DNA from: Bryum argenteum
Taxonomy: Eukaryota; Streptophyta; Bryopsida; Bryales; Bryaceae
Assembly (NCBI GenBank): GCA_037043015.1
Contig: CM073321.1
Span: 1,307,001-1,371,000 of the forward strand
DNA length: 64,000 nt
Reading direction: 5' to 3'
Under the pieces are notes generated by a model, which was not told where the DNA came from, made no database searches, and was given only the letters and a program-made list of their open reading frames with translations. How positions within the stretch are numbered: the first letter of the stretch is position 1; each line of letters begins with the position of its first letter. A program made the translations under genes and the position numbers. Shown in pieces: positions 1 to 54,061 of the stretch.

Positions 1-21
1 AGGGTTCAGGGTTTAGGGTTT
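1..21. repeat. Degenerate TTTAGGG-type telomeric repeat
   Basis: The first 21 bases are three consecutive AGGGTTY units, the repeat of most plant telomeres. They stop at once and are followed by AT-rich DNA, so this is either an interstitial patch or the inner edge of a longer array left of the window. Confidence 0.55.
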
Positions 22-1347
22 CTATTATAGGTGTGTGATGATTGTAATTGGTCAAAAAAATGTTAATTTTTATACACCAACTGTGAGGAATACTATGTTA
101 GCAAACACTCAATGACACAATAAAATTTTAGTATAATCACTTGTAGGCAATACAATGGATACAACTTTCAATTTCATATTCTTGTGAATCGAGTATTCTT
201 AACCTCAAAGTTTTCTTTCTAAATAAAGTTCCTATACAATAAATTCGATGCAATTTTTATCTTAAGGTGAAGTCTGACATATTTAATTAAATATGGTCAG
301 TCCACGATCTACAATTAAGTACAATAGTTGCAAAATGATTTCCATAATCTAGATTCCATGAAGATACTCTTCAAATATGTAGATTTTAAGGTCATGGATG
401 GAGGAATCTCCACATGTTTTAAAGTCCATAAGAAGCCCAAACTCCATATTTAATTAAATGATGCATAAGTCTTATTAAGTATTAGGTTATTAATATCTTA
501 TCTATAAGTTTATTACTATTAACGTTTTTGTGTATATGCAATTGCTAACAATTCTTAATTGAATGTTGATTATTATAACTTCAAATTAAATTATACACTT
601 CAAATTAATTCTATCATATGCAATATTTCGTTAAAAATTGTATGAGTAAACATATTTTTTATTAAATTTTGTTTACTTCTTCGTATATACGTAATATATT
701 TGATAATTGTATACAATCTAATATAGTAAATGATATTTATCACATATTATATTCTATACTATTTATCTATAAATAAAAAATATATCTTTCAAATTGTTAA
801 TTCATACAATGTAAATATAATCTTAGTATATTATGTAGAGTATCAAATTGATTCAGTTATAGATTGTACTGATGAAATCAACTATCTTAACTTTAAATTT
901 TAAATGAAATCTTCAAGGTTATCAACGATGAAAAATTTATACTATTTCATAAGTAAGTTTGTAAATCTTGTTAAATACACTTTGGAATATTTAATAAAAG
1001 AAGTTTTAATATACATAAAATTTTATGTTTAAACTTAATTTCATTGTATAGATGCTCAATGGTATATATGTCATTTAAATTTTTTTAACATAAAGCTTAC
1101 CAAAATAAGATTACATTTGAACGTTTTAATTTCATTTGTAGATGCTTAACCTTACAATTGGATGTTGTATTGAAATGTTCAAAATCAGTTGCAAATATGG
1201 ACATCTTTTTGTTTAAAATATGCATTTATCAAATACAATCTATACATCCATTGATATTTAAGTTAATATTCTATTCTGCAGATTTCAGTAACTATTTTTA
1301 ATTAAATCGCTGCTGATTGTCCAAGAAATGGAGATTTCAGCATATAG
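22..1347. other. AT-rich DNA, no gene seen
   Basis: I see no open reading frame of note, no repeat structure and no RNA gene here. The composition is strongly AT-rich, like the rest of 1-4.8 kb. Confidence 0.5.
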
Positions 1348-1662
1348 CCTGATTAGCCTGAGATGTTTCCATCCAAGCGCACCTTCCTTAAAGGCATTCG
1401 CCCTAGATAAACTAACCAACATGCAGTGTTCCGCTTCTGTTTCGGCACTTAGACATCCTTAGACGAAAGAGTGATATTCCAAGATTGGAGGTGACGTTAC
1501 ACGTCACCAACTCTCACCTATCTTACACATTCAATGAAGGTTGTCACTGCAAAGCTATAGTAAAGGTGCACGGGGTCTTACCGTTTAGCCGTTAATACTT
1601 CGCATCTTCACGGAGAGTTCAATTTCACTGCCTCCATGTTGGAGAAAGCAGGGCAGCCATTT
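1348..1662 (-). rRNA. Organelle-type large-subunit rRNA fragment (domain V region), probably a mitochondrial insertion
   Basis: On the minus strand this reads as conserved 23S-like rRNA. AGTGAAATTGAACTCTCCGT lies at 1629-1610 and GACCCCGTGCACCTTTACTA at 1577-1558, in the order and spacing of bacterial and mitochondrial LSU rRNA. The flanks also match: the GGCTGCCCTGC side helix at the 5' end and the CATCTCAGGCTAATC stretch at the 3' end. Only about 315 bases are present and both ends run into AT-rich DNA, so it is a fragment and not a working gene. A plant mitochondrial 26S origin (a NUMT) fits best because the match is bacterial-like and unlike cytosolic 25S. Some bases at conserved sites look changed, which suggests an old insertion. 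Confidence 0.8.
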
Positions 1663-2494
1663 TATTCTTATCGTTAGTATTACTTATTTTGTGACGTTCT
1701 ATTAGATTTATACTTTCATTCTTGAGGATTAAATAACTAAATAAACATCTGAGTATTTTAGAAAGTCTATGTGTGAGAAATTGAACCTAATTTATACTTA
1801 TGTCTTAAATTATTTGACCTTGTGAAATCATAAGAATAAGATTTATAAAAACCAATTAAAGAAATGAAATTTTTTAGTTCAGTACCTTCTTAAGCTGAAA
1901 GGTAAGCTTAAAACACGTAATTCGTTATAATGAGAATATGCAGATTATCAAATTGATGAAAATTGAGCTTGAGTTGAGCCAAATGTCTAGTGTGGGTACA
2001 TTTACCTCAACCCAAGCTAAACCCACATTAATTATCTCAAAATCAGTGAAGAATACCATTATAAAAAATTACGTGTTTTAACCGAATCGAGTTTATTTCA
2101 TCATAATTATATTGCTTTCGTTGTAATTATTATAATGAGTCATAAACATATGCAACTCCTTACGCCCTATTATGATGTATTTCACACAATATAGTATACT
2201 TTATATTTATTTTTAAGTATTGTAGTTAATCTTGGACATTTCTTTGTTTAAAAAGATGTTCATACTTCAAATTAAGGATTGTAAAACTTATTTACGTTTA
2301 TTGAAATTATATTTTTGATATTATTTGTAGAAAATATACTTTTAAATGAAGAAGCTTCGCTATAAGACTATCTTAGAGTACTCGATAATATATCCTGACT
2401 GATAACTCATTATTGCCCATGTACTCAACACTCTATTGTCTAATCCACCTGATTTTGAATGCCGCTTGCAAAGTAGAAAAGACTCAGCCTCATT
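1663..2494. other. AT-rich DNA, no gene seen
   Basis: Nothing recognisable. A short purine-rich stretch near 1950-2050 has no coding or repeat structure that I can support. Confidence 0.45.
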
Positions 2495-2758
2495 GTGAGG
2501 CTTCCATCGTTAGCAATGCCTTCAGAACGTAGAATGTTCAGCGTTTTAGACGCAGAGCTGCCTACAGCAACGAATTGGCTTGATGTAGAGTGGGTGCTAA
2601 TTCTCTTCAAATTCTGTAGCAATGGTATCGAGTTTCTTGAAAAGCGCAAGAAGTTTATTGGCCCTGTTGGTAGTCTTATATTACGTTCCTTCGAGCGCAA
2701 AACATCACATAGGCGAAAAGATTGGCCTGAGAACAAATCGTCGTTTGAACAACCTTAG
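2495..2758 (+). pseudogene. Remnant of the ParB-like gene family seen at 7.1-11 kb
   Basis: About 110 bases (2628-2740) match 9427-9534 of the large gene closely in DNA and protein. Both read FLEKRKKF, then G-P-[VI]-G, then RSFERK, then KDWPENK. The preceding part of this frame (2495-2627) does not match the large gene in the same place, so the remnant is rearranged or joined to other DNA. It ends at a stop soon after the match. It sits alone in AT-rich DNA with no palindromes nearby. It shows that the gene family exists in more than one copy. Confidence 0.65.
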
Positions 2759-3655
2759 AGAGTAATGAACTGCATCGACGTATTTATGTTTTGAACATGA
2801 CTTTTCATTAATAATTTATTCTACTACTTTATAAATATATTTAAATGCATACTAAAGAACAAAAATGGTTTTAAATGAACATGCAATAGGAATAAATGTA
2901 CTGAAATGATCGTTGTACAATGTGGCGAACAATGTACTCTAATACATGTTTTCATATATTTAGAATGTAATCATAGTCATTATACTATTTAAAATATGTC
3001 TTTTTTAATTTATATAGCTGGTAAAATTCTAGATAATAGGCAATATATATAGTTTCTAAGTTATGAATTTTATTGAAACTCTCTAGGCAATAGCATGATT
3101 TTATAGTTCCGGAGCACTTAATATCATTAACCTATATTCGACATCAAAAAAATCCAAATTTTCATTTGTGCTAACACTCACTGTCTTACTTAATTATATT
3201 TATGAATCTCTTATCGTCAAATTTTGAATTCTAAAATAATGTTCGAATTAACAATTCAGTTATTAACTAATTTTGTCAAAGACACTACTTATAGCAGTAT
3301 CAAAAATTAAAAAAATATCATATTATATTTTTTAATTATCTATATACAAACTATTATATTCAACCATAACTTTATGCAATATCAGATCATTCGCAAAAAA
3401 CAAGTGTATTTCATATGTGGTAACAATCTATTCCCAACCTTCTCTAAAATAACCTACTATGAAAGAATGTATTTATTAATTTCTTATACCTAAATGACAT
3501 ATCTATAAAATACTATATATTTGGTTAACCAATTTATTAGTCTATTAAAGTCAATAAAACTCTTAATTGAACTTTAAAAATGATTAATTTATTGACCTAC
3601 TATTTTCAAATACCAAATTCTTAAGATCATATATTTATTAACGTATTAGTTCCTT

Positions 3656-3699
<44 letters not shown>

Positions 3700-4599
3700 T
3701 ATTAATATGTTTAATAAATAGTCGAATCAATAATCTCTTATTTCAATGTGTATTCAATAATTTGTTTATTGTTAGTTATTTTTCAAATAACTATATTTAT
3801 AAGATATTGTATCTTTTGCTGCTCAATTTATTATATGATTGTATATTTATTTATTTTTGTACATTTACATATTCCTGAAAAGTCTATAAAGTATCTACTG
3901 ATTGACAAATTAAATGTGGATTAAGTAATCTCTTCATTAAGACTTATGTTATCCAAAAATAATCCATCAAAGATATTATTTATTAACGTGTAATACGAAA
4001 ATAACTTATTTTACAAAAAGGTAGATTCTTACTTATTTATTTATTTAACTATATTTTTATTTTTCCTAAATATAGAAGAGCTATTATGATAGAGAGTGAT
4101 CATTTTGATTCCTGATTTTTTTAGAAATGACATCAATTTTTTTTTTTTTTTTTTTACTTTTGCATTTCGATGTAATCGCATATATCTTTTCCTACTTAAG
4201 TAAACTCCAGTGTGACTAGAGTACGAAACGAAAATTCACCTTTCTAAAAACTTATGGTTATATTTATTTATACTAACAAAATATTATTTGTACTTGTCAA
4301 TACCCATAATCTAAAAATAGTACATACTACAAAAGTAGAAGAAATTAAAATGTATAAGACAATTTTTGTTACAGAAATTCAATATATTTGTTTTACTAAG
4401 ATGATTTAAAAATTACAAATTAATTACAAGGTGAAGAGCCTTATAAAGAATTATTTTTATTCTAAAATGGTTTTTACCAATGTATACTATAGGTGATAAA
4501 AACAAAACATGACAACCCTTTATTACAGTAGATAGGGAACAATGTACTCTTTAAATTTACGAGTTCAAACTAAGAATTTAGAGTACTTTACAATACTGA
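2759..4599. other. AT-rich DNA with simple repeats, no gene seen
   Basis: No coding sequence is supported. The stretch holds a long (AT)n run at 3660-3695 and a poly-T run near 4135-4156. Confidence 0.5.
3660..3695. repeat. (AT)n microsatellite
   Basis: About 18 uninterrupted AT units. Confidence 0.95.
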
Positions 4600-4689
4600 A
4601 ATTAGTCACAAACTTTCATTAAAAACCTAAACATGTATTTAGTCAAATTTTGGACAAAAATTGGACATAAACATAGTCAAATCCTAGTC

Positions 4690-4826
4690 AAAACATAGCC
4701 AAGAATTAGAGAAAAAATTAGTAAACATTAGTAAACTAGTAAACATTAGTAAAAATTAGTAAACAGTAGTAAAAATTTGTAAGCATTAGTAAAATTTAGT
4801 AAACATTAGTAAATATTAGTAAACTT
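4690..4826. repeat. Minisatellite of TTAGTAAA-type units
   Basis: Variants of ATTAGTAAACA recur about every 9-16 bases, roughly ten times, directly before the hairpin at 4847. Related AGTCAAA words precede it from about 4635. Confidence 0.75.
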
Positions 4827-4846
4827 AAAATCACTAAGGTAAAAAC

Positions 4847-4958
4847 GTTTTCCATGCCCATGATCATGTGCATGGGCATGGTCATGCACACGGCCATGTA
4901 TGTGTGTATGACCATGTGCATGACCATGCCCATGCACATGATCATGGGCATGGAAAAC
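4847..4958. repeat. 44-bp inverted repeat (hairpin) built of CATG-rich words
   Basis: Arms 4847-4890 and 4915-4958 are reverse complements with essentially no mismatch, around a 24-base loop. The arms are themselves runs of CATG-containing 6-mers such as CATGCC, CATGAT and CATGTG. One frame on each strand therefore reads as His-Gly/His-Asp repeats, but there is no sign that this is a real protein. It lies between the TTAGTAAA minisatellite and a GC-rich tandem-repeat block. Confidence 0.9.
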
Positions 4959-5065
4959 TTTTTCATGATGGGACCTCCACGTCCCACCATCGCCGCCAAC
5001 GCACTGTCCATCCCCCAGACACTCCACCCCATCCAGACTCATTAGTTTCCTGCATTCCCTCTCTC

Positions 5066-5200
5066 TCCTTTGCGCTATTTGCAGACTCGTGCATCAGGGT
5101 TTTGTCGTTAGTGTATCTCCTTTGCGCCATTTGCAGACTCGTCCATCAGGGTTTTGTCTCTTTTTTATCTCCTCTGCGCTGCATACTCGTGCCACTCGTT
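5066..5200. repeat. 52-bp tandem repeat, about 2.5 copies
   Basis: Units start at about 5066, 5118 and 5170, each with CTCCTYTGCGC and then ACTCGTSC. Each of the two full units ends in CATCAGGGTTTTGT plus T-rich sequence. Confidence 0.8.
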
Positions 5201-5296
5201 TTGTCGTTTTGCGCTTCGATTCGCGCCATTTTGCTTCAAAAGCTGTGCGTGAGTGCTGTAGGGGTTTGCGCCGGGGTGAGGGTGCGAGGCTCTCCA

Positions 5297-5395
5297 GTTG
5301 AGTGCTTGGCGGAGGTATTTCTTGAAGCTCTGTAGTTTAGTGCTTGGCGGAGGTTTAGGGTTTCGATTTCTAGTTGAGTGCTTGGCGGAGGTCGG
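5297..5395. repeat. About 38-bp tandem repeat carrying GTGCTTGGCGGAGGT
   Basis: The word GTGCTTGGCGGAGGT appears three times, near 5301, 5339 and 5378, directly before the larger tandem repeat. Confidence 0.8.
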
Positions 5396-5439
5396 TTTTG
5401 CTATGTTGTTGAGTGCCCGTCGTTGAGGCGCAGTTTTGT

Positions 5440-5795
5440 TTCTCCGCAGGTGTTTTCGTTGGAGGCGGAGGTGCCGCTGCTCGGGGGAGCCAGCAGTGTT
5501 TTCGGAGGTTCTCGGTGTAGGCGCTTTTTCGCGGGGAGGTTTCGGAGGTGCCGCTCCGCAGGTGTTTTCGTTGAGGCGGAGGTGCCGCTGCTCGGGGGTG
5601 CGTCGCAGTGTTTTCGGAGGTTCTCGGTGTAGGCGCTGTGTTTCGGAGGTTCTCGGTGTAGGCGCTTTTCCGCAGGGAGGATTAGGAGGTGCCGCTTTTC
5701 CGCTTGTGTTTTCGTTGACGCGGAGGTGCTGCTGCTCGGGGGAGCCCATAGTGTTTTTGGAGGTTCTTGGTGTAGGCGCTTTTCCACATGGAGGA
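5440..5795. repeat. GC-rich tandem repeat with units of about 110-145 bp
   Basis: Each unit has TGTTTTCGTTG, then GCGGAGGTGCYGCTGCTCGG, then GGAGGTTCTYGGTGTAGGCGC. The first word starts near 5450, 5562 and 5706. One unit has an extra copy of the GGTTCTCGGTGTAGGCGC segment. Open frames through the block are by-products of the repeat. The block may be a promoter or 5' leader, because it is a GC island upstream of the 7.1-kb gene, but nothing proves it. Confidence 0.8.
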
Positions 5796-6695
5796 AGGTT
5801 ATCTGCAGTTGCTTGCCGGATTGGGGTTCTACTTCCCGGCTACTTCTGCTTTTTGGAAGTGATTAGCGGCGACAGAAAATTCCTGAATTCTTCTTCCTCG
5901 TAAGTCCTCTGTCCCAATTTAATCGACTTTGATTACATCCCATTTGATTGCATCCCATTTGATTGCATCCACGCATTTTCCGATTCATTGCAGGTAGGAA
6001 CTGGATTTAATCTAAAATTTTCAATCTCTCATCAGATTTTGCCATTCTTAGTTTGAGATTTAGCTCGACGTGAAGTAGTTGCGCAATTTAATTGAGCCGG
6101 TCACTAGTAGGGATGTGTTTGTATGCATGATTTGATTCTTGCATCCATTCTTGTGCATTGCTTGTCATTGTTTTTTTCTCATGTCTGATGCGATTTCATT
6201 GATCATCTTGTCTTTGAAAGTGCCTGACACTAATGTACTAATTTTGACTTCGAATGTGCTCAGCAGTATTAGATTTCTGTTCTTCACAATAGCACTTCTT
6301 TTCTAACTGCATTCATGTTGAATCTTGTGTGTGTGTGAATTTCATTTTAAGCATTGAAAAAAATAATGGATGCAGCATGTTCTGTTGAATTGGGCGGCTT
6401 ATGAATGGAGAAATTAGACTTTGTCCTTCAGCTACAATATCATTAAACTCCCAATCGAACTCCCCAACCAATTTTTTTCATACAAGATCTGTAACTCATC
6501 ACAAATGCTAACATGCAAACGAATTTAATCACATCCTTCCCATATCATGACTAAACACACTCTTGTGCACGTCAAGCCAAGGACAAGCGCAACAACCAAG
6601 CGCATTATCAACTAAAAAAAAAATGGCGCGCATGCAGTAACGATCATCACCTGCATTCTAATGATAATTTAGCTAATAACTAGTTAGGTACTCCT
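5796..6695. other. Intergenic or leader sequence, no gene seen
   Basis: No coding sequence is supported. GTAAGT at 5899 and a T-rich stretch ending TTGCAG at about 5992 could be a leader intron of the downstream gene. That is only a possibility. Three short ATTTGATTGCATCC-type repeats lie at about 5940-5970. Confidence 0.35.
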
Positions 6696-7044
6696 TACAG
6701 TTTAGCTCGAGTCGAGCTAAACTGTAGTTATCAGAGGCGCTAGCTGATCTATTGTGTGGTCTATTCACTGGTCTTTGCAGTTTAGCTCGACTCGAGCTAA
6801 ACTGTAGAGGTCAAGAAAGGCAAACAACGGAGTCCTAATAACGACGTAGTTTGAGGATAAGGCCAAAGGGTAAAGGCTACACTACAATGACGTTGAAATG
6901 CAATAACCACACAATTGTCCCTACAGTTTAGCTCGACTCGAGCTAAACTGTAGAGGCCAGTTCCGTTAACAGTTTAGCTCGAGTCGAGCTAAACTGTAGG
7001 GGCTCGTGCCAACAACAGTTTAGCTCGAGTCGAGCTAAACTGCA
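6696..7044. promoter_or_regulatory. Cluster of five 31-bp palindromes upstream of the ParB-like gene
   Basis: Five copies lie at 6696-6726, 6776-6806, 6922-6952, 6968-6998 and 7014-7044. Each has a left arm TACAGTTTAGCTCGA, one central base, and the reverse-complement right arm. Mismatches are limited to the outer two positions. The central base is G in copies 1, 4 and 5 and C in copies 2 and 3, which means those two are inverted. The last copy ends 66 bases before the ATG at 7111. The position suggests operator-like or nucleation sites for a DNA-binding protein, or a source of small hairpin RNAs. The role is inferred. Confidence 0.85.
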
Positions 7045-8550
7045 GTGCTGGGATGTACTGAAAACTCATCATGTGTATCGAAACCGACTATCAACTAACA
7101 CAACTTCTACATGAACAGTCAAGAGAAGGCACGAGTTGAAGAGGCGCTCCAGCACTTCTTCAAACTCAGGCCGCTAGACGCTGACGAAGACGATGGAGAC
7201 GACACGAAGCAATTAGACTGCTGGGAATTCAAAGACCCCTCAAAAGTAGTTTCGTGGTCTGGAAGGTGGATCCCATATACTGCATTCCTCACCCTTGTCG
7301 TCACATACGAAGGGGATGTAGAAGACCCCATGTGCGTTGACATCGACTCCAAGCTGACTGACTTCGACCACGAAACAGAGAAGGAAGTCATAGCGACGTG
7401 CACAACCTTCAAGGAGGATGACAAGGAGTGTGCCTACAACTACGCCATATTGATCGATATCAAGCAGACTCGTTTCGACTTGGGGCAGTTGGTGGAGAGC
7501 TTAGAGGCGTCCAGTTTCGATGATATCAAATCAACACTGAAACAGGATATGCTTACTAAAGCATGGCAAACAAAACAGGGGGGAGCTCTCAAACCCAAGC
7601 AGCTCGCGATCAAACTGCGATCTGTAGTCTCCGCACTGACGCACGCTGACATTATGGCGAAGACTATACACCTGAAAGGGAAAGCTCCACTGGAAGGATC
7701 TGGGCTGACTGCAATCGGGAGCGGCGTACATAGCAGGACCCCAACGCGCCCGCAACGTGCAACTAGGCCTACCCCAACAACCACCACGGCTACAGACTCG
7801 CCTGTAATGAGGAGAGAAGCTCCCGTGAAGAAGTCGACCGAGGCGAAGAAGAAAAAAAATATGCTCATCCCCGAAGAGGATGCTTTAACGGCTTTGAACG
7901 ATGCTATTCAATGCATTCCAAAGAACGTTAATACCGTGGAGGAGATCGACTTCGAGAACGTCCACCTAATCTATTAGAAGTTCTTCACGGACTGTCAGGA
8001 CTGTTTCGTCTTTCCGAAACCTGACACAAAGATAGAGGTCGACACGATGAGGATGATCGAGTCCCCTCCCGAATGGACCATTTGGGCTTTCGAGAAGAAG
8101 GGCAAGACCGACTTGATGAATTATCTCATCAATATGCCCGACAGGTCCCAGAAGCAAACGCTCTGCGTCATGCCAAAACTTGATGTGAAGCCGAACGGCC
8201 TGGAAGATATGCAGGACTGCGAGTTTTGGATCATCAACGGCCAACACAGTGTTGCCGCCTCGAAGCAGATGCTTGAGTCCAAAGTCCCAGAAACAATTCG
8301 CAAAGACTTTCGAGTATGGTCAACTTTCGTAGTATGGACAAAGGATGAAGCCAAGCTCCGCAAGATATCGGCGTTTTATAACAGAGTGAACCACTTCACT
8401 CCATTTAAGCCGACATGGGCATCGAATATCCTTGCCACCCGCACTGTGTGGGAGAACTACGGGCGCCCAGCAAACAGACATGCAGTAGCTGGGGTGGCGG
8501 ATAAGCGTGTGCAAACAAAGCGAGTTGTGTCACAATTCGCAAATTTTGAC

Positions 8551-8756
8551 GTAAGTATTACCTCATGTTGCATCACATATCTACCTTCTATCATAGCAAA
8601 TTGTTCCCCGTAACAGTTTAGCTCGACTCGAGCTAAACTGTCGTTGCTGCTTAATAAACCAAAGATATATACAGCTGTTGAATTCCGGATGCACACGAAA
8701 GCTAAAGTTACCGCTCTCTTTCACTCTGACATCTTACATTACTTGTGGTATTGCAG
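8551..8756 (+). other. Intron 1 of the ParB-like gene, carrying one palindrome
   Basis: Donor GTAAGT at 8551, acceptor TTGCAG ending at 8756, phase 0. The codon frame is open on both sides (..ANFD / KFVDS..). Confidence 0.85.
8612..8642. promoter_or_regulatory. 31-bp palindrome, copy 6 (inside intron 1)
   Basis: Same arms as the upstream cluster with changes only at the outer two positions. The central base is C, so it is the inverted orientation. It begins 61 bases after the splice donor. Confidence 0.9.
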
Positions 8757-10106
8757 AAATTCGTGGACTCCATTCGACATAGGTTCGCCATGATTGATGT
8801 TGCCAAGGCCCAAGGAGAGGTGAAGCACAAGGTCTTATCCCTAACGAATGAGCTGAAGATTATCACCTTCCCTGAAGATCTCTGGAACCTGTGGGCAGAG
8901 TTGATTGGAAGTGTTGCCCAGGGGACCCTTATCGACCCCTACTCCTTGAGGCAGCTGTGTGACAAGCCAGGGTTCAAACCAGACAGCGATCAAACCTTGT
9001 CGAGGGAATTTTTTAAGAACCTCGGTAACCTTTCGGAGTCAGACCATAGAAAACTCTGTTCACATATGTTGAATAGGTCAGGTCCGTCACGGAAACTGGA
9101 GTACCCGAAGGTTACTCTCAAACAACCGGTAACTCTTCTTGAAGATTGCTACTCCGTGAAGGAGTACGTTGAACGGTTGAAGCGTAAGGCGACCGCCCAG
9201 CTTCAGATCCACAAGATGAGTCCCCAACTCGGAATCTTCAAGAACAACAAGTTCGACGTGGATGCGTGGAAGAAATTCAAGAAAGACTTCCACGTCACGA
9301 AGGCCTCAAAGCGCGCACTCTTGGAATGGGGGATTCCTGATAAGTACTACGCAGATCAGAGGCAAACCCAGCACAGGAATACCAGCTGTGAAGATCTCTC
9401 TCCCTACGCGAAGAGGTTCTTCGAGGTGTTTCTGGAAAAGCGCAAAAAGTTTACTGGCCCTATTGGTACTCTCATATTCCGTTCCTTCGAGCGCAAAATA
9501 CCACAGAGGCTGAAAGATTGGCCTGAGAACAAATGGCCAGAACCTGCACCCGAGATGAACGTCGGAATCATCGACTTCAGATTGGTTCCGGGTAGTTGTA
9601 GTTCCTCAGCTGATTCCTCGCCTGACCACCCATTCTTTGAAATGTTCATGGCTATCTTATCGTCCCAGAACAAGCCAGCTCTGAAAGATGTTCCCTGCTG
9701 GTTATTTATTTGCGGGGGTGAGAGTGCATACGCGCAAGTTGAGGCGTTCGCGACAAATCCTGCATTCTTCCCAGGGAATTATAAGCTGATCCCGTCGATG
9801 TACTATCCATCCCCGCACGAACGGCTCACTGGATACAACGCGAAAGCGAAGCAAGCCTCAGCGCCTGTGCGTCTTCTCTTCATGATTAGAGGAAACGTGA
9901 ACCTTGCGCGTATGCCTCAGGCCGAGTATCGCGCTCCAAAGCATGCGCTTTACGAGAAGCCGCGGAAGTACAACGAGTCACGGTACCACATGTACCCGAT
10001 CGAGTTAAGGATGGATTTTTATTTGCAGGTCATCCAGTTTTTCTGTCAAGAGCAGGAGAACATTTTTCTTGTCTACGCCGGCGGGAAAGCAGTCTGCGCA
10101 AGCATG

Positions 10107-10263
10107 GTAAGCTTCGCTGTAATAAAACTCGATTATCCTCGCTCGCATAGGAACCCCTACAGTTTAGCTCGAGTCGAGCTAAACTGTCAAGCTTGTTTTC
10201 AAATCATTTCCGCTTTAGTTACAGATGATTTCAGTTCTTTAAGCTGCACTGTTTTCTTTGTAG
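10107..10263 (+). other. Intron 2 of the ParB-like gene, carrying one palindrome
   Basis: Donor GTAAGC at 10107, acceptor TTTGTAG ending at 10263, phase 0. The frame is open on both sides (..CASM / MLSLN..). Confidence 0.85.
10158..10188. promoter_or_regulatory. 31-bp palindrome, copy 7 (inside intron 2)
   Basis: Central base G. It matches the consensus except at the last base, and begins 51 bases after the splice donor. Confidence 0.9.
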
Positions 10264-11186
10264 ATGTTGTCTCTCAACGCCTATGCTATATTCGACGCCG
10301 AAGATAGAGAGGACATCGACCAGGCGTACGATGAAGGGCTTACTCTTGATCCTACTGACTTCTTCGTGAACGGGTATTTCGTTGACAAAGTCGAGTTCCC
10401 GGAGGTTGGCGCCATGCTCTTGAAAGGCAAGCGCAAAGCTGTTGCGTCTTTGGATGACGAGGCCCTCGACGGACGTCCCCGACCAGGAGGACTCTGGGTC
10501 AAGTGGAAGGCAACTTCACGGTGAAGGCAGCACTTACAGCCTTGGTTCCGGAGGGGATGACGAAGAGCAATACATGGAAATCGACACGACCCCTCGGACA
10601 CCGCAGGAGTCGCGTACTGCTCCCGGGCGAGGAGGAGGTAGAGGGAGTGCAAAGCGGAAACGTAATCCCCTGTCGAGGGACTCACCCTCAAGTAGGTTCA
10701 AGGCCGAGGAGAGTGCTGAACTGGCAGCACTACAGCGCAAGGTTGAGGAGGAGATGGCACACCGGAAAAAGTTGGAAGAGCTCCTTGCACAGCAGCAAAT
10801 TGAGCAGCGGGAACGCGAAAAGAGGGAACAGGAACGCCATGACAGGATGATGGAGATGATGGAGAGTTTAACTGCCGGCCACGCATTAACTTCAATGCGG
10901 ACAATGGCAACCACTCCTGCTACACAGGCTATACCCACTTCTCTGCAACCACTCATGTCCCTGCCGCCTCCAACTACCGAGCCTCCCACACCTGCGCCTT
11001 CCTCTCCTATGCCTGAGATACGACCTGTGGGTGACGAAGAAGAAGAATCTCCAGGTCCTCCTTCAACTTAGATTTTGGATCGAGTGTATAGTATTTAAGC
11101 TGTAAATGCCGGAAAACACATATACATGTGAAATTTTGTATCAAACTCAGACATTTTTTTGTAATTAATACAGGCCTTTACTATTT

Positions 11187-11217
11187 TGCAGTTTAGCTTG
11201 ACTCGAGCTAAACTGTT
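11187..11217. promoter_or_regulatory. 31-bp palindrome, copy 8 (between the ParB-like and FCP1-like genes)
   Basis: Central base C, with one internal mismatch (GCTTGA for GCTCGA) and changed outer bases. It lies about 120 bases after the ParB-like stop. It is about 90 bases before a likely 3' splice site (GCCAG ending at 11309), so it may be upstream of the next gene or inside its first intron. Confidence 0.85.
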
Positions 11218-11309
11218 GCCCTTTTTCCTATCTGCTTCTTGATGGCTCCCATATTCTATTTCCTCCATCTTATCGTTTCCTAATTCCATGAATTTGTATT
11301 GCTTGCCAG

Positions 11310-12452
11310 ATGTTAATTTGGATGACGAAGCAATCGATGTTCCAGTCATGGATGATGTCACGCTTGAATGTTATCACCATGAGCGGGTTCCATCGGTGGA
11401 GTACACACTCAAAATGCATGATGTCTCACATACACAGAATGTTGTTGCTGTCCGTGATGAGTTAGATTGCACTGAGCAGTCACTCGGGTCAATGGGTGTC
11501 CAAGTTGACTTAGAGGAGAGCAATTATGATAATCAGGTAATTTTTGTTCCACAAACACTGCTCTCACCGATGCCATCGTTGCGATGAATTTTATGTTTCT
11601 GACCTTGAATTCATCGCACCAGTGACGAAAGCTCCCCAGTAATTTTGTCGTGGTGCGTCGTTTTCATTTCTGGTCAACGAAGCATCGGTCAATGATTTAA
11701 TTTCTAGAGAAGACATAGGTGGGGTTCCAAGCAAATCCTCCGGTACTTGGTTAAATGTTGTTCTCAACCTCAATGGTATCCTCTGCAGTTGTTCCCCATT
11801 TTGGGAAGCTAAAGGATACAGAAATCGTGACTTCCGTATTCACTCAGCCACGTTGCCAACCGAGGTGGGGAAGAAGCTTGTATGGGTGAGGCCCAACTGT
11901 AAGGACTTCCTCTCTCGGGTGGCATCGTTTGCTACCATCACGGTTTGGAGTTCGATGATGAGAACAACCACAGAAGCCATTTGTGATTTTCTCTTCGGTC
12001 CTATAAACCCTATAAGGCCACTACGAATTCTTGGTCAAGAAGACTGTGACATGATTCCCTTGAAATCTGGTGGGAGCAGACCATTGTTCATGAAGGAACC
12101 GGGAACTCAGAAGTCTATCTTCCTTAAGACCTTGTCAGCTCATCTCTTCAATAGCTTTGATGGTTTTTATACAGAGGCTAATACGCTCATCATAGATGAT
12201 AGTCCGGTTAAGCACGTGCTTAATCAGCGGGAAAATGTTATTTTACTACCATCCTGGTCTCACAAGGACAATAGGGCACACGAGGATTCTATTTTGTTAG
12301 ATGAGGTTTTGCCGTATCTGTTAGAGCTCCATGAGTTTGACGGTTCCCTTAGCAAGTTTCGGTCATCGTTACCATTTGGACGTGCCATGATATATGATGA
12401 TCGTGCATCATTAGATCTGTATAATGATATACAAAAGGCATTAATAGAATGA
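11310..12452 (+). CDS. FCP1-like (NLI-interacting factor) HAD-domain protein with an atypical NLNG signature, exon borders partly unresolved
   Basis: An acidic N-terminal exon runs from about 11310 (after TTGCCAG) to 11536 (before GTAATT). The domain exon runs from about 11708 to the stop at 12450-12452. The domain reads VVLNLNGIL (11757-11783), then WVRPNCKDFL, then TVWSSM, then LIIDDSPVK (12186-12212), then a D-x-x-L-x-E-x-L-P-Y-L segment. That is the motif order of FCP1/SCP-type phosphatases. The family signature needs an aspartate nucleophile (D-x-D or, in many plant members, D-L-N-G). Here both positions are asparagine, so catalysis is not expected unless this copy is mutated. An in-frame TAA at 11640 means the exon between 11537 and 11708 is not resolved. 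The gene follows the ParB-like gene in the same direction and shares its palindrome environment. Confidence 0.6.
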
Positions 12453-12608
12453 AAAATTATTTTATATTCTATTGTCAAGTAATTTTCAACCCTTTGATTT
12501 TAATTTGAATTTGTATCTCAGGATGTGAACCTCCCGTAGTAGCTTTGTAGGACTTTTCATTGGTTTCTGAATTTTCAGTTTGAAAAATTGTTGAAATAGA
12601 TTACGCAG

Positions 12609-13358
12609 GGTGATTGTCGTGCTTCTGTGGATTCTCTGATGAATGCTGCGGATTTCGGGCCTTCACTTCGGAGTAGAGGACGATTATTGCAGTCTGCTGA
12701 AACGGCTCAATCTACCATGGATTTTTCGACAATCGCAGTAGAAGATGGAGTAGTTAACAGCCTTGTCACTAAGTCATCACCTCCAAAGGTGTTGCAATCG
12801 GCTTTCCCTGTGTCGCCTCCAAAAATAAATCAGAATGGTTCTCCTCTTCAAATTACATGTACGCCTACGAAGCGTATGTTATACGACATTGACGCGGGTA
12901 TTTCTGATGAAGCTTTTGTAAAGGTTTGTTCCACTGTGCATTTAGTACTTTTGAGTTAAGTATTTGCAAGAACGAATAACTATTTGTAGATCTACTGCTG
13001 TACACTCTTATACGTTACACAATTCTTAGACCTTGTACTCATATGCTACCTATTGCATGTATGTATCTATTCGCTCGTTCACTTATAAGAAATGCCATTG
13101 TTTCATTTTGTCCAGGATCCTGTTTTGGAGAGTCCAAATGCATGTCCTTTGAAGTCTACGGAACAACGAGCAATCAAGCCTTCGTCAGAAAACCGCCGTC
13201 ACCCGCTACCTAAGTCAAGCATTGAGGACCGGCGTCGCGAAAGACTGCAACGCCTTCTTGATAATCCATTGATGCAAGACAATGATTCTAGCTGGACACG
13301 TCGGCGTCAACGAGCATTCATCCAATCTCGTATTGTTGCTTATGGTGGAACTCCGTAG
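12609..13358 (+). CDS. Unrecognised two-exon frame downstream of the FCP1-like domain
   Basis: The exons are about 12609-12923 (after TACGCAG, before GGTTTGT) and 13116-13358 (after GTCCAG). The intron is phase 0 and the frame is the same on both sides. The predicted peptide is serine/proline-rich. It ends in a basic region rich in R-R-R-E-R and W-T-R-R-R-Q-R. I do not recognise a family. It may be the 3' end of the FCP1-like gene if the TGA at 12450 is skipped by splicing, since the spacing is intron-sized. It could also be a separate small gene. No ATG is clear at the 5' end, which favours the first reading. Confidence 0.5.
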
Positions 13359-14096
13359 TAGTTACATCTATTAACTACAGAAGTAATTTTGTATAGATTT
13401 GATAGTCATCACTCTTATATGGCATATTTTGTGAATCATGATTGATACTTACAAGCGCATAAATGGAATATTCTTTTATTCCCATCCTTTTTCTATCGTT
13501 TGTTCAGAGCTATGTCTCTTTTTACATATATTTATATCAATTTTGATGCATCATCTAGTACTTTATGCTTAACATTCATAGATATTTCAGATGATTCTCT
13601 ACTCTTAAAACTCCCAAAGTCATGCATATTTCCCAATATAACGAATATGGGGTTACTTGTTAGTGATGATCTGATAACACGAGAGGAAAACAGTGTCCAA
13701 AGGGACACAGTTTAATGTGCGTTTTGACGCAGTTTAACGCCGTTTAACAGGGTCAATTTATGTGACGCAAAAATGCCAAAATAGTCACGGACGTCTTTTG
13801 GGCTTGACGTCGCACGTCTAAACGTGTTAAACCATTTAACATAAGATGACGTGCTACGTCAAAACGGGTCATTTTAGAGCAGGTAAGTGACCTAGAGTCA
13901 GTAACTTCCGAAGTAACTTAGTTTCCAAGGTGGCTATGACATGGACATTTCTCATGTTTAATTACTACGTGGTCTATGACGTGCACACGCCCTCGTCGTT
14001 TTGGATGGATGAAGAATTTGCTCATGTGGCACATTTTTAATGGCTGAGATTTAGACACGTGGCGTGATCTTGGATTTTGCATATAATTTTGCGGTT
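13359..14096. other. No gene seen
   Basis: 13680-13870 is rich in short words such as CAGTTTAA, GTTTAAC and GACGT. It includes a small hairpin, GTGTCC-AAA-GGGACAC, at about 13693. No coding sequence is supported. Confidence 0.4.
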
Positions 14097-43874: not shown

Positions 43875-45682
43875 CATGTGGTACAACTTGCACCGCTCGG
43901 CGTTTGTGCGAGCGGGGAAAGGTGTACCATCTAACGTTGCGAGTTGAACGGTGTTGTTTGGACGGACATCCAAAACTTCGAATGGGCCTAGCCAGATGCC
44001 CAGATGGCATCGAATTTGCCATCTCGATTTCGGATCTTGATTTCGATGTCTAAAACCGCTTCTATCCCACAAATTAGGGCAAACGGGGTTTGTTTTGTGG
44101 TGACCTTGAACGTGGTCCTATATGCCCACAAAGCGGCATTGAGCTTGGTGTCCCAATCCTGTTTGTTGTCATGGATAGTCTTCCTCAAAATCCTCACGAT
44201 GGTTTGATTACATCGTTTGGCTAAACCGTTGGTTTGAGGATGGTAAGGGGTGGTTTTACGGTGATCAATCCCGTAAGTCGCGGTAAGTTCTTCAATGAGA
44301 TCATTGAGGAAGTGGGTGCCTTGGACGCTAACCAAAACCCGTAGGAGTCCGAAACGAGAGAAAACATTCTCAAAGAAGAAGAGTGCCGTGGTTTCCTTAT
44401 TTGCAACTTTGACTACTTTCGCCTCTATCCATTTGGTCAAATTATCGACCGCGAGAATGATGTACGCCATTTGGCGCGATGAGGTGGAGTGCACGGGGCC
44501 CACATAGTCAATTCCCCACTTCTCAAAGGGAAGCAAGGGTAGCGAGGGTATTAGAGGAAACGCCATGTGGAGGTCATTCCTAGCAAACTGTTGGCATGCG
44601 TCACACTTGGTGGCGTGCCGGTGGGCGTCGGCAAACATGGTGGGCCAAAAGTATTCGACTGTAAGGATTTGTTGGACCGTGAGACGATCCGAAAAATGTT
44701 TGCCGCAAGTGTCACCGTGGCATGCTACAACAATACGTGATGCCTCAAGTTTACTAACATACCGGCGGAGGACCCCGTCAATGCCGCGTCGGTACAACCG
44801 GTTTGCTATAATAGCATAGTTGCGGCTATTGACCTGGATTTTGCGCCGTTCAATGGCGTCTAGGTGATCGGGGAGTTTTTGAGTGCTCAAAAACTCCAAG
44901 ATATAGGTGTCCCACGTGGGGGTCACGGTGATGGAGAAAAGGTTGGCATCGAGAAGCTCATCCTCATTGTCAACCATGCCCATTGATTTGGACAACCGTG
45001 AGAGGTGGTCCGCTTGAAGTTGCAAGCGGCCGGGTTTATACTCCACGATATAATCTAACTCCTCTAGGAACAAAACCCATTGGGCCACACGGCCGCTAAG
45101 GTCGGGTTTGTTAACCATGTAGCGTAACGCTAAATAGTCGACAAAGAATACTACGGGGTTCATGAGTAAATAGTGCCTAAATTTCTTGGCACTAAACACC
45201 ATGGCCAAACATTCTCTCTCCGTAGTAGAATAATTCCTTTCCGCGGCGGTTAATTGGCGGCTAGCAAATGCCACAAGGCGGTCCTTGCCGTTAGGTCCAT
45301 GTGGTTGACACAAGGTAGACTCCACGGCTGGGGGTACAAGACATAGATAGGAGGTCAACTTGGTCTTGAGGGCATCAAAACCCTCTTGACACTCACGGGT
45401 CCACTCAAATTTGACCTCCTTCCTTGTGAGGTTGGTCAAGAGTATGGCGGCCGTGGCATAATTGGCCATGATGTCCCGATACCACCCAAAATGGCCAAGA
45501 GCAAGTTGTATGCCCTTGACCGAAGTTGGAGGTTCAAGGTTCAGAATTACTTCAACCTTTTTGGGGTCCGGTCCTTGCCGGCCTTGGAAACCACGTAGCC
45601 CAATAATACCCCTTTTTGAACCCCGAGGTACACCTTGGTGGAATTTAAGGAGAGTCGGTTTCGACGGCACCGTACAAAACAC
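43875..45682 (-). pseudogene. Ty3/gypsy RNase H and integrase (element G3)
   Basis: From right to left: connection domain, RNase H (ERNYSTTERECLAMVFSAKK, ADHLSRL), a zinc-binding domain (H..H..C-x2-C in KCDACQQF), the integrase core, and the C-terminal WLGPFEVLDVRP. In the core, GIDYVGPV and VDNLTKWIEA are normal. SVQGTHF has valine where the second catalytic aspartate belongs (codon 44324-44326). NGLAKRCNQ has lysine in place of the catalytic glutamate (codon 44216-44218). A frame change near 43990 separates the C-terminus. It is part of the element whose gag starts at 49540. Confidence 0.9.
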
Positions 45683-50257: not shown

Positions 50258-51802
50258 TCATGGTGCCCTAACAAACGGTGGCACTTCAAGGCCTTGGAAG
50301 TATTGCAAGTGTTTGCCAATAATTTCCTGTAAATGGGGGAATAATTGAGCAACACTCCAAGTATCATCAAGCCCTAATGCTAAACCACATCTTATCATAG
50401 CTTTTCTAGCATATGAGATGTTATCATGATCTACCTCCCTATTAACATCTTGTACAGAAAGAGCAGCTAATTCAAGGAAAAAACGTTTGCCAGGATTGAT
50501 CAACTTCCCTGACCATTGACCACCTACACGGGCCTCATCTTGCCATCCATTGGCTTGTATCAATTCAGTTTTTTTTTCCTCCCATCTCCTAGTCCATGAG
50601 TCCTTAATTTTTGAAATTATAAATGTCTCAGCAGGTTGACACAAGTGAGTAGAACATGGAGGTAAGTAACACAGTTTAGTATTTTTGGAAGTTAGAACTT
50701 CTTCTAGTCTTGGTGTTAGTGTATGACCGCTACAATTGTCCAACCAAACTATTTTTTGTTGCCCATAAATATCAGCTTGATATGCACGGGGATCTAAAAA
50801 AAACTCTGGGAGAATCGATTGATCCATCCAACCCTTAGGACCGGACCTATAAGTGACCCCAGGAATATTGTCAACTAACCCCCGGATAGGATAGCTCCTA
50901 TTTCCATTTGTAAAAATGATCATAGGAGCTTCCACGATAGAACGGCGCCCTCCAGAGATCCTAATAACAAGAGTCATGGACTCTCCTCCTGAGACAACAT
51001 CTGTATATTTGACACTTGTGTCACCACGAAATCCCAGAGTCCTACCATTATCTAAATTAACAACAAAGTGAGTCTCATCTAAGTTCTCCATAAGATGTTC
51101 CTGAAAGATTCCTGACAAAAACCCTCTATGCAAGACTCCCATATGAAATGCAGTCTGCATTTCTATATGCAATTCTTTTGAGGGACTGCATGTCAATCTA
51201 CCACGTTGTGATAAAAGAACTATGTTTTGTGCATCCATGAATTGTTGAATCCAACTGTTAGTAATTTTAGTTATGAGCAAAACATTATCTTTGGGATCAG
51301 TGGAATGAATGTTAAACTCAGAATCAGGTGCAGTTAGAATAGATAATGCTAACTCACGAAGAAGTTTTGTGCAGAGAAGTGCAGAGAACTTTACCCCCGA
51401 TTTTCTATACTGCTCAAATGTTTCCAGGACCTTTGGATACAAATATTGAACCCATGCACTTCGTTTTTGTCCTCGACCTGCTCTCGCTTTAGGATATAGG
51501 CGTCTTCTTTTTTGCACAAGACCACGACAACACGATATGGATCCAAGAGTACCTTCTTCATTTGTAAACTCGTGACGTTGTTGCCACCAACGATTGGCCT
51601 TGACTAAGTTTGCAGTACGTTGACCTCGAAAATGTTCGGGGAATTGCTGAATGGTTCTGGCATTGAGGCCCTCTCTTCCTCGCAATGTCTCGTCCTCAAC
51701 CATCCACAAAATGATAGATCTTCGCACGCTCAATGTGGAGACTTGTTGGAGATGGCGAATGTTTTCGGGGATTTCAACCAAAGGCATGCGAGGTGCAGCC
51801 AT
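50258..51802 (-). CDS. DDE transposase, pogo-like, intact
   Basis: 514 residues from the ATG at 51802 (MAAPRMPL), uninterrupted. An upstream GTTGCAG just before this ATG could be a leader-intron acceptor. A helical N-terminal region with W/R-rich helices is followed by the catalytic core. Asp242 lies in ENLDETHF, Asp355 in IVWLDNCSGH and Glu392 in CQPAETF, with 36 residues between the second and third (DD36E). The P-P-C-S-T-H-x-C-Q-P motif matches the DDE_1/pogo family. The enzyme would cut and paste the surrounding element at TA sites. Confidence 0.92.
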   Translation of the reverse strand: MAAPRMPLVEIPENIRHLQQVSTLSVRRSIILWMVEDETLRGREGLNARTIQQFPEHFRGQRTANLVKANRWWQQRHEFTNEEGTLGSISCCRGLVQKRRRLYPKARAGRGQKRSAWVQYLYPKVLETFEQYRKSGVKFSALLCTKLLRELALSILTAPDSEFNIHSTDPKDNVLLITKITNSWIQQFMDAQNIVLLSQRGRLTCSPSKELHIEMQTAFHMGVLHRGFLSGIFQEHLMENLDETHFVVNLDNGRTLGFRGDTSVKYTDVVSGGESMTLVIRISGGRRSIVEAPMIIFTNGNRSYPIRGLVDNIPGVTYRSGPKGWMDQSILPEFFLDPRAYQADIYGQQKIVWLDNCSGHTLTPRLEEVLTSKNTKLCYLPPCSTHLCQPAETFIISKIKDSWTRRWEEKKTELIQANGWQDEARVGGQWSGKLINPGKRFFLELAALSVQDVNREVDHDNISYARKAMIRCGLALGLDDTWSVAQLFPHLQEIIGKHLQYFQGLEVPPFVRAP

Positions 51803-54061
51803 TTTCTGCAACACATGGACAATATAAGAAATAATTAAATCATCACCACAAACACCACAAACACAAACTTCATCTAAACTCGGCCAGCGGATTGATGCAA
51901 TATGATAAACCAGAGACTCAACCCCTAGCAGGCATCAATACATCAGTCAAGAGATTCAATCCAAAACGCGCAATCCCTCATATCAATCAAAAGGGAAATC
52001 CCAAGGGTTCAACGAACAGGGGAGAACCCCTAATGATGTAAAAGTGGAAGCGTTCATGCTTCCCCCACAACTGACACCCAAGCACAGGCCAATAAAGAGT
52101 CTTCACAACAGGAACTCAAACAGAAAGCAATGAGGAACCTCCACGCTGACACATTAGATCCAGTTCTTGATGAAAGTGAATGAGTAGATGCCAGGAATCC
52201 ATAAGCTCGACAAACACTCAATCAATCAATCCAGATTTGAATCCCTAACGCGAAATAACAAAACAAAAAATCCAATATTCAAAGTGAACCAAGAATTCAC
52301 GGAATCAGTCAAGAGTATACTATTATGTGAATATTAATATGTGAGAGTTCAAAAGTGAATGAACAGATGCCAGGAGTTCATGCAAGCCCGACAGACACTC
52401 AACCAATCAGTCCAGAGCAAAATAAATCGCAACAGCAAAAATAAATACTCGAAAGTCTATAAATAATTACCCAGAATCCATGAAATCAACCACTTGGGTG
52501 TCGTGGTTTTTACTCTCGATCTGCAGAGATCCTACATATATTCCTGAGTGTCGAGAAATGAAAAACAGAAATCAATACTTCCGGAAGTACAGTTTCAAAG
52601 TGAAGACGAAAGCAAGTTCAGCGTTAAAACCATATTAACTCAACTTCATTGATCAAATTCCATGTCAGAGCCACCTTCATTCGTGTCAGAGTCAACTCTT
52701 TTGTACAGGCAGAATTCTAATACGGATGTACATCTGCTATAAACTAGATACACCGCGAAGTCATTTGTAGACTATTTCCGACTTGTAGAACAAAGCCTTT
52801 GCAATGTATAAACAAGATCAGCTCAGAAGTTGCATACCCTCTCAACATCCGGATCTAGGAAATCCTTGAGGATGGAATCATGATCCTAGAATAGAGTATA
52901 GAGTTTGCAACATATACTTTAGAATTCGTAAAGCAACATGTCAGATACGACTGTATCCATGAGTGGTGGCGATAAGAGCAAAATTTCAGCTCATGTCGAA
53001 AAAAATTTAGCAGGTTAGTGAAATGACGAAATTTTCAAAATGAGCAACCACAAGTGAAGCAATCTTTCTACATATAGCATGTCTTCAAATTATTTTATCA
53101 GATGGTACTTTCCACACTCATTCAAGCACATACAGTCGGTAAAGGAGAATCATAACAAACTTAATTTGTAGTACGAATACATGAAGCATTTCTTGATATT
53201 TGTCGATGTATTGATCGATAACTAAGTATCTGGGCAGTGAATCTAGACAAAGCAACGGAGATCGTGGCTTTGAAATCGTGGCTCACCTCGAATTTGGCAG
53301 GAATCGGTACAGAAATCGGTAAGCAAAGCCTTCGCACTGTTAGAAATTGGCAGAAATCTGGCAGAAATTCGCTTGCTCTGAGACCACAAAACCATCACAC
53401 ACTAGGGTTGTTAGCCTTGCATAAAGCTCTCTCGACATGACTGAGTGATGGAAATTCAACCCATAAGGCCACAAGCCTACTCAGAAGTATATAGTAGATA
53501 CCACAGTTATTGAGACCATGCGCAACAAGAATATAATTCGTTATCTGTGCTATGCAGCCCTCGTATAATTATCCATGAATGTACTGATCACCGTTCTGAA
53601 GAGACATGAATTATCGCACGAAGTCCCTTATCGCACAAAGTCCCCTGTAAGCTTCGAAAACTTGGCAGATCGACGCAGTGCTTACAAAGCCTTCGCAATG
53701 TTAGACACAGTCACACAGATGCAATGCTTACAAAGCCTTCGAGGGTTTCGAGGATTCTGTACCTGGAATGGAGCTCGAGGTGGTTGTGGACTAAATCTGG
53801 ATCCAGTCGATTGCAATGATCTTGACCGAGCTTCCAAACTCTCCCGGTGGTTCCTGATGTTGACAGAGCTTCTGGATTCATACAAGGGTTGCACAAGTAA
53901 GCACGCACAAGCAAGCAAGAAGCGAAGCAGAGAGGCGGCAGAGGCGGCAAGAGGCTAGATAGAGGCGGCGCTGAGAGTAAACCCTATCTTAACACTAATT
54001 GTACTTACAGTTGACAATTAGTGTTTTGGGTAAAAAGTGCATCTAACACTAATCTTCATCT
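51803..54061. other. Non-coding right half of the pogo-like transposon
   Basis: No second ORF is recognised. 53237-53440 and 53575-53958 are open frames without recognisable domains. Two copies of AAAGTGAATGARYAGATGCC-type sequence occur at about 52165-52185 and 52350-52370, with CAATCAATCAR words near each, so part of it is internally duplicated. Confidence 0.45.

Follow-up and report, generated by a model that had tools for sequence, protein, structure and literature searches.

Transposon self-recognition and escape from silencing are, to our knowledge, known from few systems. In CACTA/EnSpm elements the element-encoded protein TNPA has many short subterminal sites that also govern the promoter. 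The transposase of VANDAL elements is MULE-type. The Arabidopsis protein VANC21 was localized to non-coding regions of its own element, introns included, and VANC motifs occur in tandem repeats subject to gain and loss, with related VANC proteins targeting differently; the VANC21 motif has nine bases, and the string "palindrom" is absent from that text (PMC5735166). Here we describe a stretch of 64,000 nucleotides from the moss Bryum argenteum (assembly GCA_037043015.1, contig CM073321.1, positions 1,307,001 to 1,371,000 of the forward strand; hereafter, the window), in which eight 31-bp palindromes lie around and inside one gene. These palindromes are parts of a large two-gene DNA transposon and not a free repeat, and by analogy the moss system seems to work like VANC self-recognition, outside VANDAL.

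The moss motif resembles that of VANC in lying in non-coding parts of the element, introns and upstream DNA included, and not in the exons examined, in being tandem with varying copy number (one to six in intron 1 over 21 copies), and in differing between families along with the protein (two types, one contrast). Unlike the nine-base VANC21 motif, the moss site is a near-perfect palindrome of 21 bp. We found no paper on a moss palindrome/transposon system in the open-licence literature. If our reading is true, this would be a second case of self-recognition, with long symmetric sites whose protein–site code could be read by comparing families, and in plants that are well suited to genetic work.

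Palindromic sites in a two-gene transposon

All eight near-identical palindromes of the original prediction were found at the predicted starts, with zero to three mismatches across the 30 arm bases and no strand assigned. Five lie upstream of what we term the accessory gene: 6696..6726 (centre G, no mismatches), 6776..6806 (centre C, one mismatch), 6922..6952 (centre C, no mismatches), 6968..6998 (centre G, 46 bp start to start from either neighbour) and 7014..7044 (centre G, closest to the gene start). The others are in intron 1 (8612..8642, centre C), intron 2 (10158..10188, centre G) and a presumed intron 3 (11187..11217, centre C, three mismatches). None of the eight falls in an exon as drawn, and each contains two symmetrically placed CpG. 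The claim that there are no others in the window also stands, a ninth copy being absent from the 64 kb in a scan allowing up to nine mismatches. Two weak core matches (at most four mismatches in 20) do occur in another copy of the element, e2, at the equivalent of approximately window 1963-2021; they were unlisted by the 31-bp scan of the window. The even split of the centre base, G in four sites and C in four, was reproduced. Its proposed role as a mark of direction was not borne out, as in a sister subfamily the centre is A, G, T or C at frequencies of 0.29, 0.27, 0.25 and 0.18 (51 distinct sites).

The element that holds these sites occupies window 1..13654 on the plus strand, and is 97.97% identical to e2 over window 1-13732. 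It ends at 13654, after ...CCCAATATAACGAATATGGGGTT, and two further copies, C8a and C8b, diverge from the window at the same base; comparison of copies places the 3' terminal inverted repeat, which forms the element end, at 13632..13654. The terminal sequence CCCAATATAACGAATATGGGGTT, inverted and with one T for G, opens the two copies seen whole, e1 (C1:11400537-11415377, 14.8 kb) and e2 (C1:4278382-4296464, 18.1 kb). Element termini are AACCCC...GGGGTT, with one base changed (GGGTTT) at the 3' end of e1, and 4-bp target duplications, AGTT and ACTT, flank e1 and e2 (two of two whole copies, judged by eye from the ends). Because the match to e2 extends at least 78 bp past the element end, the two loci share a duplicated flank. 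Judging from e2, the window holds the 3' 13.65 kb, or three quarters, of an e2-like element, whose transposase-bearing 5' end lies ahead of the window start.

Site placement within elements

In e2, six sites precede the transposase pieces by 53-374 bp, five more stand upstream of the accessory gene, and intron 1, intron 2 and the presumed intron 3 hold one site each; 3.4 kb separates the 5' end from its nearest site, and about 2.4 kb separates the 3' end from its own. This arrangement recurs in the other copies read, where sites are often more numerous, many of them upstream. Intron 1 carries one to six sites over 21 copies (window included), and intron 2 one to four over six copies of the family that we call family 1 and five in both copies of its relative, subfamily 2. 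Tandem periods are mostly 32-33 bp within family-1 introns; for upstream sites they are mostly 46, 52 or 64 bp. Downstream of exon 3 there is one site, which persists across copies and in subfamily 2. Exon avoidance was checked for exon 1 in 30 loci and for other exons in few copies: none of 162 family-1 sites (20 loci) lies in the coding part of exon 1, and none of 153 sites of a more distant family, family 3 (10 loci), lies in exon 1.

The many short sites, with a proposed element-encoded binder, recall CACTA elements and TNPA; unlike those of CACTA, the moss sites are longer, palindromic, placed at promoters and in introns, and at least 2.4 kb inside the ends of e2. Nor do the sites match CACTA-type subterminal repeats in placement, since in e2 they are not crowded at the element ends.

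Site families and genome-wide distribution

Among 20 aligned copies of intron 1, pairwise identity is 0.96 in the site core, 0.79 in the spacer and 0.93 in the adjoining exon end, with 6 of 20 core columns and 44 of 64 spacer columns variable; the site is thus conserved amid diverging intron sequence. Conservation of the core reaches further, into subfamily 2 (L061 and L062), whose protein is 63-64% identical to that of family 1 over 190 amino acids (aa) of exon 1. There a 21-bp core, TTTAGCTCGA-N-TCGAGCTAAA, with any base at the centre, stands at the same places: before the gene, within introns 1 and 2, and downstream. Silent sites between family 1 and subfamily 2 are saturated (synonymous divergence, dS, >2.3 or not computable in six of six pairs); blastn matches between them outside exons include the palindromes, giving no clean measure of flank divergence.

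Family 3 shares 58% identity with the Ceratodon protein P0018 and, across 470 aa of exon 1, 30% with family 1. It has its own site (type B), TTCAACTCGA-N-TCGAGTTGAA, a symmetric variant of the type A site of family 1 and subfamily 2. Family-3 accessory genes have ATTCAACTCGA-N-TCGAGTTGAAT both upstream and within intron 1, and one copy read has it upstream of its transposase as well. A CTCGA-N-TCGAG centre is common to both types, and the outer bases change together on both arms. A third site type was not found with a Physcomitrium query, which returned only the two known families among the best 44 of 1650 candidates scored.

Across the genome searched (259 Mb, 25 contigs), a 27-bp core occurs at 4766 places at up to three mismatches, compared with none for a reversed control pattern, and type B at 2022 places at up to two mismatches. 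Association with genes was assessed for the first 100 type A places listed and for 87 distinct listed type B places, all on contig C1, with a distance limit of 12 kb and partial gene lists. A listed accessory exon of family 1/2 lies near 87 of the 100 type A places (random mean 7.4) and a family 3 exon near none; for type B, a family 3 exon lies near 48 of 87 places (random mean 1.3) and a family 1/2 exon near none. Of the other 13 type A places, five are beside a transposase and four about 4-5 kb from a terminal repeat. By cluster, 16 of 21 type A groups are by a listed exon and two more are next to a transposase, while 9 of 18 type B groups are by a listed exon and one more has an exon recovered by the Physcomitrium query. 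The original prediction had reasoned that many copies unrelated to the gene family, with target duplications, would mark an ordinary short repeat; a partial search of this kind found instead the gene association just given, and inspection by eye saw no target duplications flanking single palindromes. A free short palindromic repeat or miniature inverted-repeat transposable element was rejected on the same grounds, the listed places (n=100) being tied to one gene family.

Outside the moss, the 21-bp core was present in three prokaryotic contigs, one (L063) discussed below and two from Rhizobium, and in no viral contig. Neither Rhizobium contig resembled the accessory proteins with which it was compared.

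Exact terminal repeats are concentrated on C1, which holds 45 of 64 and makes up 17% of the genome; our guess is that C1 is a sex chromosome. Lanisha, a transposon compared with ours below, is reportedly linked to Ceratodon sex chromosomes, and 12 of 17 Ceratodon relatives of the accessory protein have U or V gene names. With the concentration on C1, these U/V-named relatives mean that the system may bear on the repeat filling of moss sex chromosomes.

The accessory protein and the transposase

The accessory gene is drawn on the plus strand with five exons. Exon 1 (7111..8550) has a premature TAG at 7975-7977 in the window copy; exon 2 spans 8757..10106; the frame of exon 3 (10264..11054, putative donor 11054/11055) is broken relative to other copies; exon 4 (11310..11537) is predicted; and exon 5 (11673..12452, start predicted) encodes an FCP1/NIF phosphatase-like domain (PF03031, E 8.1e-14). 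The window gene is broken by the stop and the exon 3 frame, and some other copies are open. Since the Ceratodon relative forms one protein of 1587 aa with the downstream phosphatase-like domain inside it, and since a CAG|GT donor lies at window 11054/11055, the palindrome at 11187 most likely sits in intron 3. It had been described as following the gene; its position is correct, but a place outside the gene is less likely.

FCP1 phosphatases carry the motif DxDxT/V. In the FCP1/NIF-like domain of the window (11757-12338), DLNGI stands in its place, and catalysis may have been lost.

Relatives of the accessory gene are numerous in the genome, with 854 first-look candidates for one exon stretch, the best 150 of which were scored. 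Among 27 public relatives, 24 are named as moss proteins, 17 from Ceratodon purpureus and seven from Physcomitrium patens, with identities of 41-49% for 16 Ceratodon proteins, 33% for the remaining one and 33-41% for the Physcomitrium proteins. They belong to the same protein family and are filed as hypothetical or uncharacterized, many as "FCP1 homology domain-containing"; the FCP1/NIF domain is present in 14 of 22 aligned relatives. The accessory protein is under purifying selection: the median ratio of nonsynonymous to synonymous divergence (dN/dS) is 0.10 in family 1 (169 pairs with dS >0.05, 19 copies, 570 bp of exon 1, frameshifted L040 excluded) and 0.26 in family 3 (45 pairs, 10 copies, about 1.43 kb of exon 1).

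Sequence searches of the PDB gave nothing useful. A ParB-like identity of the accessory protein, raised by a likeness in its motif INGQHS, was rejected: no ParB family was among the matches, and hhalign against 14 Rhizobium ParB-family frames gave a best E of 0.12. Weak unnamed matches over the INGQHS region were to PHROG 22099 (E 0.028, two of 22 members) and DUF6551 (E 0.06, one of 22). A methyltransferase-like motif in the C-terminal third was likewise set aside as too weak (hhalign E ~0.005, probability ~7%, against three of five bacterial methylase loci); two of the matched loci hold the same gene, and one PADLOC match had E 0.006.

The second gene lies in the 5' part of e2, where the minus strand encodes four protein pieces, of which two match DUF7869 in Pfam and two match nothing. 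From its position, its conserved D/H motifs and one relative named "transposase", the DUF7869 protein is probably the transposase. For DUF7869 itself, nothing was found in the open-licence literature. Membership in VANDAL was rejected because the moss transposase pieces match DUF7869 only. An open 963-aa form occurs on L063 (CADCWO010000071.1, 1-4327, 4.3 kb), a contig filed as an uncultured Synechococcales cyanobacterium; with 69% DNA identity to e2 across 2.1 kb, it is probably mis-binned DNA of another moss. The type A 21-bp core precedes the same transposase there. Transposase pieces of family 3 are 46-71% identical to the L063 protein, and those of e2 54-69%. When the best 47 of 2592 candidate transposase places were scored, 37 had a divergently oriented accessory exon listed no more than 30 kb away, three had one otherwise oriented and seven had none listed.

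The transposon may be compared with Lanisha, whose group is described with target duplications of 2-5 bp and mostly CA...TG termini, and with a C(2)C and an H(3-4)H motif placed between the second D and the last E (PMC12730594). The moss duplication of 4 bp, in two of two whole copies, is within that range, whereas the termini, AACCCC...GGGGTT, are unlike those of most of the group. As to motif order, moss C375, C378, H405 and H412 precede D436 in the alignment, with catalytic residues assigned by eye.

Proposed function and alternatives

That the palindromes are functional is well supported; we infer protein binding, the identity of the binder and the effect on expression. The reading we favor, to which we would give about an even chance, is that they are family-specific recognition sites in non-coding DNA, bound by an element-encoded dimer, most likely the accessory protein, which activates both genes or keeps them unsilenced. 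A symmetric site of 21 bp with a free centre fits a protein that would bind as a symmetric dimer. With sites at promoters and inside introns, and 2.4-3.4 kb away from the e2 ends, a role in expression is a better fit than one in end joining; the bound protein would activate both element genes or protect them from silencing. Two families that keep distinct site versions by their own gene fit a recognizer encoded by the element, whose binding would distinguish its own family from the rest of the genome. The accessory protein, with its long N-terminal part and FCP1-like domain, is the favored candidate because a transposase would be expected at the ends and because selection keeps this second protein of 1,000-1,600 aa. 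Binding sites under selection had been among the options of the original prediction and are the best supported of them, although it missed that a multicopy transposon carries both the gene and the sites; for another of its options, recombination sites, nothing was found in favor.

More tentatively, and as a possibility that we would not bet on, mosses may have an independently evolved form of self-recognition, in which 21-bp palindromes of promoters and introns, co-evolving with a transposon-encoded protein that has a domain like the phosphatases of the RNA polymerase II C-terminal domain (CTD), draw that protein to its own element and so prevent silencing, protein and palindrome changing together and so keeping families apart.

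Several observations count against the favored reading. Searches of Pfam, NCBIfam, PADLOC, PHROGs and PDB sequences found no accepted DNA-binding domain in the accessory protein. With partial gene lists and on C1 only, 3 of 21 type A clusters and 8 of 18 type B clusters have no listed gene nearby, and three type A places of the 100 have one of type B no more than 12 kb away. Mixed site forms occur (for example, TTTAGCTCGATTCGAGTTAAA), and as only two site types turned up, the co-change amounts to one contrast. Since the transposase differs between families just as the accessory protein does, it could be what binds; the copies are non-independent, and within a family the homogenization of tandem arrays can look like conservation.

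The alternative that survives best, though we think it rather unlikely, is that the transposase binds the palindromes, whether to control both genes or as internal transposition sites like CACTA subterminal repeats. Sites are also found upstream of the transposase gene, and the transposase likewise diverges between families; against this, the e2 sites are far from the ends (3.4 kb at the 5' side, ~2.4 kb at the 3' side), they occupy introns of the other gene, and the motif is absent from the terminal repeat. Less probable again is a host transcription factor or chromatin protein whose sites the element exploits for its expression. Such a factor would suit sites upstream of both genes and the two symmetric CpG in each, but would not account for each family's site version lying by that family's own gene at the listed places, nor for the accessory exon beside 87 of 100 type A places, with five of the other 13 by a transposase and four ~4-5 kb from a terminal repeat.

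We doubt strongly that the palindromes are functionless satellite-like repeats homogenized by slippage, gene conversion and transposition bursts, as their tandem periods and varying copy number might suggest, for a subfamily saturated at silent sites keeps the same core in the corresponding positions, the lone site downstream of exon 3 is retained, the examined exons are site-free and the arms differ jointly between families. Least probable, by a little, are RNA hairpins in transcripts that control splicing or yield small RNA, the remaining option of the original prediction: some sites are intronic and the three sites tested fold well as RNA (-18.7 to -20.9 kcal/mol, z -5.9 to -7.5), but mispairs show no wobble bias (41 G-U vs 44 A-C over 126 sites distinct within groups; 10 vs 13 in introns), the sequence itself is kept, beyond pairing, across a family's many sites, and the majority of sites are upstream of genes.

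Other features of the element and the window

Window 1291-2744 has no long match in e1 and may be captured or nested DNA. A bacterial-type large-subunit rRNA fragment, organelle-like, lies at 1396-1561 on the minus strand, and a fragment of accessory exon 2 at 2632-2738 (89.7% identity). Upstream of the accessory gene, 4840-4963 is a long CATG-rich inverted repeat, matched in both directions by copies on C7 and C8, and between it and the palindromes GC-rich tandem arrays with units of 38, 52 and 78 bp (5064-5840) are a possible promoter or leader. Past the phosphatase-like exon, but still before the 3' end, 12600-13370 contains more open frames, present in e1 and e2 too; these may be additional exons or a small third gene. 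Beyond the element, the minus strand at 43991-45682 and 50261-51934 holds a retrotransposon frame (RNase H, integrase) and a DDE_1 transposase frame.

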